In this document: positions 22,058 to 27,178 of the stretch, in pieces
Position numbering within the stretch: position 1 is the stretch's first letter
How the letters are laid out: every line of letters begins with the position of its first letter
Notes under the pieces: model-generated
What the model saw: only the letters and a program-made list of their open reading frames with translations
Told to the model about the DNA's origin: nothing
The model's database searches: none
Assembly (NCBI RefSeq): GCF_002205845.1
Contig: NZ_NISI01000005.1
Coordinates: 186,001-250,000 of the forward strand
Direction: 5' to 3'
Length of the DNA: 64,000 bases
Source of the DNA: Roseateles puraquae
Lineage (GTDB): Bacteria > Pseudomonadota > Gammaproteobacteria > Burkholderiales > Burkholderiaceae_C
Position numbers and translations under genes: made by a program

Positions 22058-24742
22058 GTGAACACGACCCGCCGCCTGCCCCTGCTGCCGCTGGCCGCAG
22101 CCCTGCTGACCTGTTTCTCCCCGGCCCTGTGGGCCCAGGCCACGAGCGGTGATGGTGCGGCGGGTGGTGAAGGAGCCGACAAGGCGTCGCTCGCGCGGGT
22201 CACGGTCACGGGTTCCAACATCCGGCGCGCCAGCGCCGAGACGCCCAGCCCGGTGCAGAACCTGACCGCGGCCGACATCGCCCGCACCGGCTACAGCACG
22301 CTGGGCGAGGTGCTGCAGCACCTGTCGGCCAACAACATGGGCTCGCTCGGCCAGGCCACGCCCGGCGCCTTCGGTGCGGGCGGCAGCGGCATCTCGCTGC
22401 GCGGCCTGACGGTGGGCGCCACGCTGGTGCTGATCGACGGCCACCGCATGGCGTCGTACCCGCTGCCGGACGACGGCCAGCGGGACTTCGTCGACATCGC
22501 GTCCATCCCGGTCGAGGCGGTGGAGCGGGTGGAGGTGCTGAAAGACGGTGCCTCGGCCATCTATGGCTCTGACGCCATGGCCGGTGTGGTCAACGTCATC
22601 CTCAAGCGCAGCCACGAGGGCACGGCGCTGCAGGCCGAGATCGGCAGCTCCTCGCGCGGCGACGGGCGCATGGTGAAGGTGTCAGGCATCCGCGGCTTTG
22701 GCGACCTGACGCGCGACGGCGTGGCGGGTTATCTCAGCGCAGGGTTCCGGCGCCAGGGCAGCGTGCTGCTGAGCGACCGGCCGGCGCTGGGCGGTTCTGA
22801 CTGGACGCGCTACGGGGGCGAAGACCTGGGCCTCGTGGCCAACCCCGAGCTGCAGGTGGCGCCCGAGACCCGCACCTACAGCCTGCTCGGCAAGGTGACT
22901 GCCCTGCTGCCGCAGGACTGGACGCTGTCGGTCGCCGCGTCGGTGCTGGGCAGCCGGGCCACGCAGGTGGGCCTGCTCAACTGGGTGTCGCCCGAGGGCG
23001 GCATCACGACCTTCAACTTCGGCCCCAACCACCCGAACCCGCAGCCCACGGCGCTGAACGGCACGAATGTCATCGACCCGGCCACCGGCAGCCCGGTGGA
23101 CAACGAGTTCGGCGACCTGCCGGCCCAGCGCTCACAGACGTCCACGCAATCCCAGCGCCTGGTGGCCGAGCTGTCCGGTGGCATTGGCGGCTGGGATGTG
23201 CAGGCCACGCTCGGCCTCACGCGCGTGGCGACCGACCTCACGCTGAAGCACTTCATCAGCCTGCCCGCGCTGCAAGCCGCCTTGAACAGTGGCAAGTACG
23301 TCATCGGCGCCAACAACCCGGCCACCGTGCTGGCCAGCCTTACGCCTGAAGGCCGGTCCACGTCCACCAACACGCTGAACTTCATCTCGCTGCGCGCCAG
23401 CCGCGACCTGATGAAGCTCGGCGGTGGCAACCTGGCGCTCGGCACGGGCGTCGAATTCAGCAAGCGGTCTCTGGACGAGCGCTTCCCCGACGGCTTCTCC
23501 AGCGGTGCGCAGGCCAGCAACATCTACGCCTTCGGTGTGGGCAAGCAGACCATCTCGGCCGCCTATGTGGAGCTGGCAGCGCCGCTGACCCGGCAACTGG
23601 AGGTCGACGCCGCAGCGCGCGTGGACCATTACGACACCTACGGCTCGTCCGTCACGCCCAAGGTCGGCGCCAAGTACGTGCCGATCAAGGAGCTCACGCT
23701 GCGCGGCACCTGGGCAGGGGGCTTTCGCGCGCCCAACCCGGTGGAGATCGGCACCAGCGGGTCGAGCGCGGGCTACCTGCCGCCGCTGGTGGACACCGCC
23801 TTGTGCAACCTCGTCAAGCCGGGCCAGCCCTGCGACATCGGCGTGGGCGGCACCCAGCTGCAACTGCCAGGCAAGGACCTGAAGCCGGAGAAGTCGCGCT
23901 CGATGACGCTCGGCTTCATCCTGGAGCCGGTGCCGACCATGAACGTGTCGGTCGACTACTACGACATCAAGATCCGCAACCAGATCGTCTCGGTGGGCCT
24001 GTTCGGCCAGGGCCAGATCGATACGCCCGATGCCTACGGCACCAAGCTCTACCGCGTGAACAGCCCCACCACGCCGAATGCCGCGCCGACGAGCGCCGAC
24101 GACACCATCCTCTACGGCACCTATCCCTTCATCAACCTCGGCAGCGCCCGCACCAGCGGCGTGGACGTGGACCTGCGCATGAAGCTCAACGCCGGGGCCT
24201 GGGGCGAGTTCACGCCGCAGCTGCAGTGGTCGCACATGATCCGCTACACCATCGACCGCGGCCCCGGCCAGGTCTACGAGATGGCGGGCACGCACGGCCC
24301 CAGCTTCGTCTCCACCAACACGGGCACGCCCAAGGACCGCGCCTCGCTGGGCCTGGCCTGGTCGCGCGGGCCGGTGGAACTCAGCGGCACGCTGAACTAC
24401 ATCAGCGGCATGAAGGTGGAAGACAGCAGCTACAACCTGCCCGACTGCGCCGCGGCCCTCTCCACGATCTACCCCAACGGCTTGCCCGCGGGCGGCTCGC
24501 CGCTGTGCCGCGTGCCGTCCTTCACCACCTTCAACCTCAACGCCAGCTGGCAGGTCACCCCGGGCTTGAGCCTGCGCGCGTCGGTCACGAATCTGTTCGA
24601 CCGCACGGCGCCCATCGACGCCTTTGCATCGGGCTCCACGGGCGGCGGCGTGTCGTCGGGCGGAGCGCACTACAACCCGTCGCTGCACCAGGAGGGCGCC
24701 GTCGGCCGCTACCTGACGGTGGGGGCGAGCTGGCGGTTCTGA
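22058..24742 (+). CDS. TonB-dependent outer-membrane receptor
   Basis: An 894-residue receptor. It has a signal peptide (about residues 1-28, ending LWAQA), a plug domain beginning at VTVTGSNIRRASAETPSPVQ and a 22-strand-type barrel ending in YLTVGASWRF with a terminal aromatic. The GTG at 22058 is preferred, with GAGG ten bases before it; the upstream frame encodes an unlikely basic extension. The SNIRR plug motif is usual in receptors for complex organic nutrients, but the ligand is unknown. Monocistronic. Confidence 0.92.
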   Translation: MNTTRRLPLLPLAAALLTCFSPALWAQATSGDGAAGGEGADKASLARVTVTGSNIRRASAETPSPVQNLTAADIARTGYSTLGEVLQHLSANNMGSLGQATPGAFGAGGSGISLRGLTVGATLVLIDGHRMASYPLPDDGQRDFVDIASIPVEAVERVEVLKDGASAIYGSDAMAGVVNVILKRSHEGTALQAEIGSSSRGDGRMVKVSGIRGFGDLTRDGVAGYLSAGFRRQGSVLLSDRPALGGSDWTRYGGEDLGLVANPELQVAPETRTYSLLGKVTALLPQDWTLSVAASVLGSRATQVGLLNWVSPEGGITTFNFGPNHPNPQPTALNGTNVIDPATGSPVDNEFGDLPAQRSQTSTQSQRLVAELSGGIGGWDVQATLGLTRVATDLTLKHFISLPALQAALNSGKYVIGANNPATVLASLTPEGRSTSTNTLNFISLRASRDLMKLGGGNLALGTGVEFSKRSLDERFPDGFSSGAQASNIYAFGVGKQTISAAYVELAAPLTRQLEVDAAARVDHYDTYGSSVTPKVGAKYVPIKELTLRGTWAGGFRAPNPVEIGTSGSSAGYLPPLVDTALCNLVKPGQPCDIGVGGTQLQLPGKDLKPEKSRSMTLGFILEPVPTMNVSVDYYDIKIRNQIVSVGLFGQGQIDTPDAYGTKLYRVNSPTTPNAAPTSADDTILYGTYPFINLGSARTSGVDVDLRMKLNAGAWGEFTPQLQWSHMIRYTIDRGPGQVYEMAGTHGPSFVSTNTGTPKDRASLGLAWSRGPVELSGTLNYISGMKVEDSSYNLPDCAAALSTIYPNGLPAGGSPLCRVPSFTTFNLNASWQVTPGLSLRASVTNLFDRTAPIDAFASGSTGGGVSSGGAHYNPSLHQEGAVGRYLTVGASWRF

Positions 24743-24750
24743 GCTCGACA

Positions 24751-24776
24751 GGGGCGTTGGTGCGCCGCAACGCCCC
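24751..24776 (+). terminator. Hairpin after the TonB receptor gene
   Basis: GGGGCGTTG and CAACGCCCC form a perfect nine-base stem over an eight-base loop, nine bases after the receptor stop codon. No U-tract follows, so it may stabilise the mRNA end or act as a weak terminator separating the receptor from the attenuated operon downstream. Confidence 0.5.
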
Positions 24777-24788
24777 GTTGCCGACGCG

Positions 24789-24815
24789 CTTGCGTACGGT
24801 TGCTAACGCCCCCAT
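24789..24815 (+). promoter_or_regulatory. Possible sigma-32 (heat-shock) promoter
   Basis: CTTGCG at 24789-24794 and CCCCAT at 24810-24815 are separated by 15 bases. The sigma-32 consensus is CTTGAA, 13-17 bases, CCCCAT-T. The -10 element matches well and the -35 in four of six. It lies about 60 bases before the leader peptide of the AAA-M41 operon. A protease operon is a plausible sigma-32 target, but this is a by-eye match. Confidence 0.4.
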
Positions 24816-24873
24816 CATTCGCGCCCTTGCTGAAGGCGCCCACGACAGCGCCCGCATGTTGGAGATCCCTGCT

Positions 24874-24906
24874 ATGTCCTCCCTGTTCATCTCGACGATC
24901 GACTGA
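24874..24906 (+). CDS. Leader peptide (10 residues) of the attenuated protease operon
   Basis: A ten-codon reading frame encoding MSSLFISTID. GGAG at 24861-24864 is nine bases before its ATG. An in-frame ATG at 24856 would make it 16 residues, but that start has no ribosome site. The stop codon (24904-24906) directly abuts the 5' arm of the first hairpin of the downstream attenuator, as in translation-coupled attenuators. Ser is over-represented (three of ten), without a diagnostic run of one amino acid. Expression is inferred from layout alone. Confidence 0.5.
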   Translation: MSSLFISTID

Positions 24907-25010
24907 ACACGGTTCCCGAGCCCCGGCTGAACCGTGTCTGTTCACAGATACGGCCTCAGACCGCGCGGCAGCCAAAGCCCCGTGCGCTCCCATGAGCCGG
25001 GGCTTTTGCT
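24904..25010 (+). promoter_or_regulatory. Attenuator RNA with competing hairpins
   Basis: Three structures compete. Hairpin 1 pairs ACACGGTTC (24907-24915) with GAACCGTGT (24929-24937). Its loop contains AGCCCCGGCT (24919-24928), perfectly complementary over ten bases to AGCCGGGGCT (24995-25004). That second element includes most of the 3' arm of the terminator stem. In addition TGTTCA inside the leader peptide (24884-24889) and again at 24939-24944 can each pair with TGAACA (24904-24909). A ribosome paused at the leader stop codon would cover the 5' arm of hairpin 1. That frees the loop sequence to sequester the terminator arm. The pairing is read from sequence; the mechanism is inference. 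Confidence 0.6.
24974..25010 (+). terminator. Intrinsic terminator upstream of the AAA-M41 operon
   Basis: AAAGCCCCG (24974-24982) and CGGGGCTTT (24998-25006) form a perfect nine-base stem with a 15-base loop, followed by a U-rich run (TTTTGCTTTT). It lies only 14 bases before the ATG of the 80-residue protein, so it must be bypassed for expression. This supports conditional readthrough rather than a boundary between genes. Confidence 0.75.
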
Positions 25011-25023
25011 TTTCGGAAACCGA

Positions 25024-25266
25024 ATGAGTGACCAACTCCGCTCCCGCGCCTTGCAAGAAGGCCGGGTCAAGGCGCTGCGCCGCATGAAGCAACCCATGAC
25101 GCTGGTGCTCGAGACGAGCACCGGTGCGCGCGACCCCGTCGCCCGCGCCCTGCGTTCACGTGGCCTGCGAGGTGCGGGCGAGCACATCCAGAGCCGCGGC
25201 GCCCAGCGCCGCGCCGACCGCATCGCGCTGCAGGCGCTGCTGCGACGAAAGGACTGGGATGAGTGA
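25024..25266 (+). CDS. Small basic protein of unknown function, paired with the AAA-M41 protease
   Basis: An 80-residue arginine-rich protein, predicted mostly helical, with an acidic end (RRKDWDE) and a central TLVLETSTGARDP segment. No family recognised. The ATG at 25024 is just past the terminator; an earlier in-frame start at 24934 would lie within the attenuator structure and is unlikely. Its stop overlaps the ATG of the protease gene by eight bases, so the two should be made together. The pairing suggests an adaptor, substrate or inhibitor of the protease, but the sequence does not show which. Confidence 0.7.
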   Translation: MSDQLRSRALQEGRVKALRRMKQPMTLVLETSTGARDPVARALRSRGLRGAGEHIQSRGAQRRADRIALQALLRRKDWDE

Positions 25267-27178
25267 TTCCCGACACGAACTGCGCGCCAAGCTCGCGCAC
25301 AAGAACCGGCATCTGCAGGAGGTAGCCGCGCAGCTCAAGCGCGAGCTGTTCGGCATCGATGCCATCATCGACCGCGTCATCGACGCCGTGCGCGCCTGGG
25401 TGGTGATGCCCGAACTCGTGACGCGGCCCGTCATCGTCTGCCTGTGGGGCCTGACCGGCACCGGCAAGACCCAGCTGGTGCGGCGCCTCGCGCAGCTGCT
25501 GGGTTTCTATGACCGTTTCGTCGAGGTGCAGATGGACGGCTTCTCGCACGGCGCGTCCTGGCGCGGCGCGCAGAGCATCTCCGGCATGCTGTCGCAGTCG
25601 GGGGTGCGGGAGGGTGAACCCGGCATCCTGGCCCTCGACGAGTTCCAGCGTTTTCGCACCATCGACGGCAAGCGCAACGAGATGCGCGTGGAGCGATTTC
25701 AGGATGTCTGGGCGCTGCTGTCGGACGGCCGGCTGCCACCTTCGCTGTCTCTGCTGGGCGATATCGAGGCGTCACTGGCCGATGCGGCCTTCGATGCCGA
25801 ACGGGCCGATGCCGACGAGTCGCGGCACCGCTTTCGCCTGCGCCCCTGGGAGGCCCAGGAACTGCAGCGCAACCTGAAGCTGGACCTGCCGCTGATGGAA
25901 ATCATGGCGTGGACGCCCGAGCAGCTGCAGCAGCGACTGCGAGAGTTTCGCGACAGCGGCCAGCAGCAATGGGAAACCGACTACAGCCGGCTGCTGGTTT
26001 TCGTGTGCGGCAACCTCGATGAAATGTACGAGGACCTCGCCACCAGCGTGGACGACTGCGACAGCGACGCAGACACCTTCCACGCCATGACGGCCAAGCT
26101 CAGCGTCATCGACGTGAAGCAGGCGCTGAACCAGCGCTTCAAGCCGGAACAGGTGGCCCGGTTGGGCAATGAGCATGTGGTGTATCCGTCGTTGTCACGT
26201 CGTGCCTATGAGCAGTTGATCGAGCAGGGCTGCATGCGCTACGCCCGCGACACGGGCGAGCGCTGCGGTCTGCAGATCGACGTGGGTGCGAGCGTGCGGG
26301 AGCAGATCTATGCGAATGGCGTCTTTCCGGCGCAGGGCACGCGGCCGCTGTTTTCGTCGCTGCACGCCATCCTCGGTGCCACCCTGCCCAAGGCGGCGCT
26401 GTGGGCCATGGAGCAGGGCGCCGCGCCGGGCGATCTTGTGGCGCTGACGGCCGACGAGCGTGCCGTCGTCGTGCAGTGGCGCGACCGTATGCAGTCCATT
26501 GCAGCGCCGTTCGAGATCACGCGGCTGCGCCAGCGCAACAACCCTGACTTCCGCGCATTGCTCGCCGTGCACGAGGCGGGTCACGGGCTGGTGCATGCGC
26601 TGTTGTTCAGGCGTGCGCCGACCGAGATCAAGATCCATGTGGCGAGCTTCGAGGGTGGCTACAACGCCTACAGCTCGCGCAAGGTCTGGTCGCGCCAGAA
26701 CCAGCTGGACTCGATCTGCACGAGCCTGGCCGGCCGCGCGGCGGAGCTGCTGGTGTTCGGCCCCGGCATGGCCTCCAGCGGCGCGGAGAGCGACCTGCGC
26801 AAGGCGACCGAGTCGGCGGCGCGCATGCTGCGGCACCTGGGCCACGGGGAGCGCATCGGCCGGACCGACGTGTCCTGCGCGAGCGAAGACAACCTGTGTA
26901 CCGACGTGGAGGCAAGCAATGCGCCCATCGAGGCCTTGCTTCAGGTCGAACATGAACGCGCGCTGCGGCTGCTGCGGGGGCACCGGCGCGAGCTGCTGGG
27001 CCTGGTGGATGAACTGCTGCGCCAGGGGCAGATGACGCCGACGCGCTTTGCGCAGGTCACCGGCTTGGCCCTGGGGCGCGATCCGGATGTGCTGGACCCG
27101 TATGCGCAGCGCCTGGCGTCGTTCAGGGCTGCGGCGCAGGCAGCTGGTGGCGCCGAAGGCGTCCTGCTGGCGTTTTGA
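25259..27178 (+). CDS. Soluble AAA+ ATPase fused to FtsH-type M41 metallopeptidase
   Basis: A 639-residue protein with no transmembrane segment. The N-terminal half is an AAA+ module of Clp/HslU type. It shows Walker A GLTGTGKT (64-71), Walker B ILALDE (123-128), sensor 1 near Asn252 (LVFVCGNLDE), a box like the Clp arginine-finger region (LNQRFKPEQVARLG, Arg293) and sensor 2 GTRPL (360-364). The C-terminal half is an M41 peptidase. HEAGH (438-442) supplies two zinc ligands and SGAESDLRKAT (507-517) holds the likely third (Asp512). LAGRAAELLVFG is the M41 helix. Genuine FtsH has a membrane anchor and a classic-clade AAA domain, so this is a different combination. It probably unfolds and degrades proteins in the cytoplasm. 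Confidence 0.85.
   Translation: MSDSRHELRAKLAHKNRHLQEVAAQLKRELFGIDAIIDRVIDAVRAWVVMPELVTRPVIVCLWGLTGTGKTQLVRRLAQLLGFYDRFVEVQMDGFSHGASWRGAQSISGMLSQSGVREGEPGILALDEFQRFRTIDGKRNEMRVERFQDVWALLSDGRLPPSLSLLGDIEASLADAAFDAERADADESRHRFRLRPWEAQELQRNLKLDLPLMEIMAWTPEQLQQRLREFRDSGQQQWETDYSRLLVFVCGNLDEMYEDLATSVDDCDSDADTFHAMTAKLSVIDVKQALNQRFKPEQVARLGNEHVVYPSLSRRAYEQLIEQGCMRYARDTGERCGLQIDVGASVREQIYANGVFPAQGTRPLFSSLHAILGATLPKAALWAMEQGAAPGDLVALTADERAVVVQWRDRMQSIAAPFEITRLRQRNNPDFRALLAVHEAGHGLVHALLFRRAPTEIKIHVASFEGGYNAYSSRKVWSRQNQLDSICTSLAGRAAELLVFGPGMASSGAESDLRKATESAARMLRHLGHGERIGRTDVSCASEDNLCTDVEASNAPIEALLQVEHERALRLLRGHRRELLGLVDELLRQGQMTPTRFAQVTGLALGRDPDVLDPYAQRLASFRAAAQAAGGAEGVLLAF

Follow-up and report, generated by a model that had tools for sequence, protein, structure and literature searches.

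Trp-type attenuators are built from a leader frame with a ribosome site, RNA segments that pair either as 1:2 or as 2:3, and an intrinsic terminator with a U-tract that stands before the operon. In the rep systems of the plasmids ColIb-P9, IncB and IncL/M, leader translation works together with a pseudoknot, formed by a hairpin loop, that precedes the ribosome site of the gene under control. The LEU element upstream of leuA in Actinobacteria is described as a leader frame with a leucine codon run and a conserved pseudoknot that is mutually exclusive with an alternative hairpin (PMC1262725). For toiL-topAI of E. coli, the upstream open reading frame (uORF) is reported to respond to several antibiotic classes, and RNA structure is proposed as the means by which it senses different kinds of translation stress (PMC12121999). 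In the account of a uORF from Sinorhizobium meliloti, translation of the leader frame lowers the expression of the following gene, which encodes a DUF1127 protein of an arginine-rich family, and its authors propose that translation efficiency and ribosome availability are sensed (PMC12218461). Here, we investigated a leader element in a stretch of 64,000 nucleotides from Roseateles puraquae (NCBI RefSeq assembly GCF_002205845.1, contig NZ_NISI01000005.1, positions 186,001 to 250,000), hereafter the window, in which all coordinates are given on the forward strand. The element lies before a two-gene unit, consisting of a small gene and a gene for a protein with AAA ATPase and peptidase M41 domains (AAA-M41), and had been proposed as a translation-coupled attenuator in an earlier note made from the sequence of the window.

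We consider it very probable that the element is a genuine, conserved leader switch, which would let protein synthesis control the genes behind it. Our main reading, to which we give a probability of about 0.6, is a cis-acting, translation-coupled transcription attenuator that is off when its leader frame is translated; the general reading as a translation-coupled attenuator is placed well above this sign. The frame, three helices (S1, S2 and S3), the terminator and the linkage to the operon are supported by comparison between loci; termination as the output, the sign and the trigger are what we infer.

In the window, a ribosome site (GGAG, 24861–24864) precedes the ten-codon leader frame ATGTCCTCCCTGTTCATCTCGACGATCGACTGA (MSSLFISTID*, 24874–24906), whose stop codon adjoins hairpin 1, here called S1. 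The 5' arm of S1, ACACGGTTC (24907–24915, region 1), starts with the base directly after the stop codon and pairs with the 3' arm GAACCGTGT (24929–24937, region 2). The hairpin loop AGCCCCGGCT (24919–24928) is complementary over ten bases to AGCCGGGGCT (24995–25004), and it contains the loop motif GCCCCGGC (24920–24927), of which 24921–24927 pairs with the strand GCCGGGG (24996–25002) as helix S2. This strand overlaps the terminator 3' arm GGGGCTTT (24999–25006), the partner of the terminator 5' arm AAAGCCCC (24974–24981), and the U-tract is TTTTGCTTTT (25004–25013). The frame, hairpin 1 directly behind its stop codon and the loop complementarity overlapping the terminator arm lie where the earlier note had placed them. 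A third helix, S3 (24925–24962), was absent from that note: the 3' arm of S1 and part of its loop pair downstream, with GGCTGA (24925–24930) and CCGTGTCTG (24932–24940) opposite CAGATACGG (24945–24953), TCAG (24956–24959) and CC (24961–24962), which makes the whole a 1:2/2:3 attenuator plus a loop-to-terminator helix.

This leader architecture goes far beyond chance. The folding energy of the 165-base leader is −68.7 kcal/mol compared with −50.1 (standard deviation 4.2) for dinucleotide shuffles, a value 4.5 standard deviations lower, and none of 200 shuffles was as low. Hairpin 1, for which the loop motif was not used as input, was reached by 0 of 60 shuffles, and the best downstream partner of its loop was the terminator 3' arm, with only 3 of 500 shuffles as good. 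S3 had a z of −4.0 (0 of 200 shuffles) and is also present in the minimum free energy fold of the leader. The parts of the element are kept in related genera; in the kinship comparison, the window genome belongs to the same genus as our genomes G012 and G002 (G and L numbers denote genomes and loci).

Conservation was studied in a set of 40 loci anchored on the small protein, so that loci were not chosen by their loop motif. The set consists of 38 of the 39 genomes in which the small protein had a strong match (G730, with a split element, was left out) and of two weak-match genomes, G620 and G385, where the element had already been seen; a count of 40/40 therefore covers all but one of the 39 strong-match genomes, together with two that were picked. 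G688, G539, G702, G757, G523 and G612, the remaining genomes with a weak match, lie outside the set; G539 gave no small-protein hit in the stretch examined, and no element was found in the 330 bases examined of G702, G757, G523 and G612. An ATG frame of 6–13 codons that stops at hairpin 1 is present at all 40 loci compared with 0.73 expected by shuffling, the stop codons having been picked by hand from a list, and a frame with a strong ribosome site at 33 of the 40 compared with 0.03 expected. The leader peptides, 32 distinct ones of 7–11 residues, have no residue common to all, which fits the earlier remark that the peptide lacks a run of one amino acid, and the stop codon is TGA in 39 cases and TAA in one (TAG occurs in L110). 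Neither the codon run or enrichment of one amino acid expected of a trp/his/leu-type attenuator nor a leucine run of the LEU type, which pairs with a Shine-Dalgarno box, was found among the 32 peptides. Since no residue is shared by all of them, no single charged tRNA would be read, and the frame looks as if it were kept for being translated and for the position of its end rather than for its codons.

Both S1 and S2 covary. In an alignment built from the loci with the exact motif, S1 has 36 cells with a change on both sides compared with 9.9 in shuffles (0 of 500 reach 36), and such changes affect four of its nine pairs, a value reached by 13 of 500 shuffles; among 61 distinct elements, 38 different S1 5' arms occur. 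A hairpin finder that was not told the loop motif recovered the loop with the full motif at 32 of the 40 loci, and S1 can be drawn with internal loops at the other eight. For S2, an alignment (A5) with 45 of the 61 distinct elements was used: pairing is kept in 99.4% of its cells, three of seven pairs show both-sided change, which none of 500 shuffles matched, and slid registers gave zero or one such pair. The variants behind this count were first spotted by eye and counted afterwards: TCCCGGC with GCCGGGA (a T-A pair) in G435, G762, G635 and G703; CACCGGC with GCCGGTT (A-T, outermost pair lost) in G554; and CCCTGGC (T-A) with GCCAGGG in G666 and with TCCAGGG in G499, where the innermost pair is lost. 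G666 and G499 have the same leaders as the Vandammella loci L117 and L078. At 29 of the 32 loci where the automatic hairpin carried the full motif, the best partner of the loop starts 29–35 bases before the start codon of the small gene. Together, S1 and S2 have the form of an H-type pseudoknot, with zero or one base between the loop motif and the 3' arm in 60 of the 61 elements and three to six bases on the other side of the motif in 57 of them.

S3 beats its shuffles at 5% at 29 of the 40 loci, with a mean z of −2.9, and at least 9 of the 20 loop-plus-arm bases pair downstream in all 40 folds, a count made without a null. The ten bases after the S2 3' strand hold at least six T in 100 of 109 entries, which include loci under two names and correspond to the 61 distinct elements. 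The mutually exclusive helices that define an attenuator, one of them a loop-to-terminator helix as the earlier note had claimed, are thus backed by covariation for S1 and S2 and by shuffles for S3, and in the compared sequences they stand together with a leader frame with a ribosome site and a predicted intrinsic terminator with a U-tract before the presumably regulated gene. Viewed as a possible riboswitch pocket, the invariant core (GCCCCGGC, GCCGGGG) is explained by the pairing of S2 and S3, but the spacer before the terminator aligns poorly. A proposed competition of TGTTCA copies for TGAACA holds only in part: the window has TGTTCA in the frame and after hairpin 1 and TGAACA at the stop codon, but the arrangement is not general, as TGAACA stands at the stop codon in 12 of 40 loci and TGTTCA in the frame in 8 of those. 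The extra helix between the frame region and the S1 5' arm that this idea would imply was rejected, beating shuffles at 5% in 2 of 39 loci (mean z −0.37); here and in the ensemble calculation below, G623 was left out because too little upstream sequence was available.

In the mechanism that we propose, region 2 (the S1 3' arm with part of the loop) has two possible partners, region 1 in S1 or the downstream segment in S3, and the S1 loop can pair with the terminator 3' strand in S2, which would exclude the terminator hairpin. S1 and S3 would share region 2, S2 and the terminator the 3' strand, and S3 and S2 part of the loop. A ribosome at a stop codon covers about ten bases beyond it. Under prompt translation, a ribosome at the leader stop would cover region 1, S3 would form and take part of the loop, and the terminator would turn the operon off; if the frame were untranslated, or a ribosome stalled before its end, S1 would display the loop, and S2 would compete with the terminator and allow read-through into the small-protein and AAA-M41 genes. 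The input would be the general translation status rather than one amino acid, because the peptide sequence is not conserved.

The earlier note had assigned the opposite sign, in which a ribosome pausing at the end of the leader opens hairpin 1 and the freed loop takes the terminator 3' arm, turning the operon on. The same helices would serve this sign, S2 can form in principle without S1, and the loop makes at least as many Watson-Crick pairs with the shared strand as the hairpin does at all 40 loci (more in 23, equal in 17, fewer in none). However, an opened S1 frees region 2 for S3, which passes at 5% at the 29 loci given above and uses part of the loop; and in a crude ensemble calculation, S2 becomes less favourable at 32 of 39 loci when a ribosome occupies the stop region, a small effect with a median of only 1.1 kcal/mol. 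The earlier sign is not supported and we consider it unlikely; the anatomy weakly favours its reverse.

Several observations weigh against the attenuator that is off when translated. The 40 loci are related, and counts over them are not independent trials; taken alone, S1 exceeds its shuffles at the 5% level at no more than 23 of the 40 and S2 at 26. With the ribosome placed on the start or on the middle of the frame, the ensemble calculation had no clear direction (22 of 39 loci each). Compared with S3, S1 is far less stable, and the calculated barrier for passing from S1 to S3 is low (median 3.6 kcal/mol, range 0.8–15.5), so that S1 may be too short-lived without a helping factor. In the absence of a ribosome, the S2 state is disfavoured at 38 of 39 loci, by a median of 4.3 kcal/mol under a crude pseudoknot penalty, and a drawing without S1, in which S2 encloses the S3 core, is also possible. 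Given these unfavourable energies, either the switch needs assistance from kinetics, from pausing of RNA polymerase or from a bound factor, or its sign is a different one. Finally, five entries (G435, G762, G635, G554 and G623) have a poor U-tract and keep S2, so that termination cannot serve as the output at every locus.

These five entries bear on the possibility of a translational switch, in which a strand some 20 bases ahead of the downstream start codon is the partner of the S1 loop, and either this pseudoknot or the structure that replaces it would govern how ribosomes enter the small-protein gene; the plasmid repY-repZ systems are pseudoknot translational switches of that type. In four of the five (all except G623), S2 has both-sided changes despite the poor U-tract, and the S2 3' strand ends 14–26 bases before the start codon at 38 of the 40 loci. 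The two exceptions are G753 and G761, where 75 and 82 bases separate the strand, together with a good and intact terminator, from the start codon, which speaks for termination; the stretch of at least six T is nearly general among the entries, and in the window the terminator hairpin leaves the bases just before the start codon uncovered. We regard a purely translational switch as doubtful, and transcriptional and translational outputs may both exist. A wider view, which we offer tentatively and at somewhat less than even odds, would be that the device is family-wide and reads whether ribosomes finish any short frame, irrespective of its codons; that the terminating ribosome chooses between S1 with S2 and S3 with the terminator; that the lineage-specific small basic protein and AAA-M41 are in this way tied to translation stress in Burkholderiaceae-type bacteria; and that S2 outlives the terminator in some lineages, giving a transcriptional output in some and a translational one in others.

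The distribution of the element was first assessed at 79 named AAA-M41 loci from a protein search, where it was counted by exact motifs and by variant motifs added later. It is present at 71 of the 79, and the comparative check named in the earlier note, which asked for homologous loci lacking peptide and complementarity, had an outcome favourable to its leader-peptide element. Element and small gene occur together at 69 loci, the element alone at two (L109, L110), the small gene alone at one (L103) and neither at seven, three of them cut off. The exact-motif search had failed at 14 loci: L053, L063, L078, L082, L109 and L117 were added later for their variant or displaced motifs (L053 is without an intact terminator); L064, L065 and L116 are cut off too near the gene; L086, L091, L095 and L114 have neither element nor small gene; and no element was found at L103, where the small gene is present and which may represent a lost element or an assembly fault. 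A CCCTGG/CCAGGG hairpin was seen before the small gene of L103 (2456–2515), with no frame, S1 or loop motif. In three loci of one genus (L166, L167 and L172; g50, perhaps Variovorax), no small gene precedes AAA-M41 in the stretch viewed, and the frame that lies just upstream is another leader of about 30 codons.

In a family sample of 399 genomes, AAA-M41 (E ≤ 1e-60) was found in 42, the element (covariance model, E ≤ 1e-7) in 31 and a strong small-protein match (E ≤ 1e-25) in 39, or 47 at 1e-5. A comparison of these lists places the small gene in 30 of the 31 element genomes and AAA-M41 in 28. G668 and G787 have element and small gene without an AAA-M41 match, and in G783 the element stands 54 bases before an AAA-M41 match without a small-gene match. 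In G730 (L221, L258), a break between S3 and the terminator 3' arm divides the element, whose halves lie on two contigs beside what by eye is transposase-like sequence. By these sequence comparisons, the element travels with the operon, and most closely with the small gene, more than with AAA-M41. This tight linkage would suit a protein-responsive leader, in which the basic 80-residue protein would regulate its own operon by binding to the S1/S2 pseudoknot and leader translation would play a secondary part, and by the crude energies the S2 state does need a stabilising factor. Yet at L109, L110 and in G783 the element directly precedes AAA-M41 without a small-gene match, the frame ending at the hairpin would be unexplained, and the predicted structure of the protein, of low confidence (mean predicted local distance difference test, pLDDT, 64.7), says little; we consider such autoregulation quite unlikely.

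An order-wide covariance search matched 186 of 399 genomes at E ≤ 0.1, including the true element of the window's own genome. Thirteen loci with weak hits (2 in the own genome and 11 in others) were inspected by eye, all were ordinary GC-rich terminators, and such hits were not counted as members. Matches to the small protein across the order were rare and only distantly related, in 6 of 330 genomes including its own; of the five loci in the other genomes, which lie outside the family, four were inspected and none of these showed the element. In the two weak-match genomes G620 and G385, the element occurs at a separate locus before a remote relative of the small protein (L259 and L260).

Upstream of the leader in the window lies a TonB-dependent receptor gene (22058–24742), and downstream lies the two-gene unit. 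The earlier note had taken AAA-M41 as the next gene and immediate target, whereas the small gene (25024–25266), which encodes a basic protein of 80 amino acids (P0001), stands before it, and the gene for the AAA ATPase and peptidase M41 protein (P0002, 25259–27178) begins within it, with an overlap of eight bases. The terminator does lie downstream of the TonB gene, and a terminated RNA of about 190 bases would result; the element might accordingly be an ordinary terminator of that gene or a trans-acting small RNA. We hold this to be very improbable, as the TonB gene was found at only 1 of the 79 named loci (L057) within the stretches examined, the frame, S1 and S3 would be unexplained, and changes in the loop are matched by changes in cis. 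A sigma-70-like promoter, TTGCGT-N17-CATCAT (24790–24818), is a prediction only. It agrees with the consensus at 7 of 12 positions in the window, whereas 19 of 40 loci reach 8 or more of 12, often as TTGCCA-N17-CACAAT. A standard promoter scan of 24000–26500 found none, and we infer a transcript start near 24825. A stretch like GCAACGAAYRACCTTGC is seen 20–50 bases before the leader frame in L063, L074, L098, L109 and other comamonad leaders, and perhaps forms a 5' hairpin before the ribosome site. The small protein had no Pfam match above the cut-off and no NCBIfam or PDB match, PADLOC and PHROGs searches with it gave nothing useful, and plasmid searches with both proteins returned no match; its family has a conserved KHIRSQGAQRRAD-like stretch.

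The covariance models of Rfam 15 gave no match in the window at the gathering score, and at a relaxed E-value the only hit in 24700–25150 was far below its cut-off and outside the element. No title or abstract describing this leader was found in the literature, most subscription papers being outside the search. The Burkholderiales-1 motif, a published candidate that carries no Rfam number in the table of the paper (Weinberg 2010, PMC2864571), was not compared with the element. We read the element as a probable variant of translation-status attenuation that is not filed in Rfam 15. If this is true, it would be a well-conserved cis-regulatory RNA outside Rfam 15, in which a frame kept for translation rather than for its codons is joined to a loop-to-terminator helix, and it would front a small-protein family without database match and an AAA-M41 protease. 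The element would then offer a compact test bed for an RNA structure that reads a terminating ribosome, and a handle on the trigger of the operon.

Compared with the known systems, the element has in common with the rep leaders of ColIb-P9, IncB and IncL/M both leader translation and a loop pseudoknot upstream of the regulated gene, but those serve plasmid replication, are the target of an antisense RNA and have a translational output. With trp-type attenuators it shares the leader frame with a ribosome site, the 1:2 versus 2:3 pairing and the terminator with a U-tract; it differs in having no regulatory codon run, in an antiterminating helix formed between loop and terminator 3' arm and, judging from its anatomy, in a 2:3 pairing that would go with termination instead of antitermination. 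The leader frame and the pseudoknot that excludes an alternative hairpin are also those of the LEU element as described (PMC1262725), whereas here the codon run is missing, a terminator is present and the stop codon lies against S1. In toiL-topAI, the structure is reported to occlude the ribosome site, termination to be Rho-dependent and stalling to occur within the uORF (PMC12121999). The DUF1127 uORF is close in its behaviour, but the termination proposed there is Rho-dependent, with elements inside and after the frame (PMC12218461), whereas the leader described here has an intrinsic terminator and conserved alternative helices.
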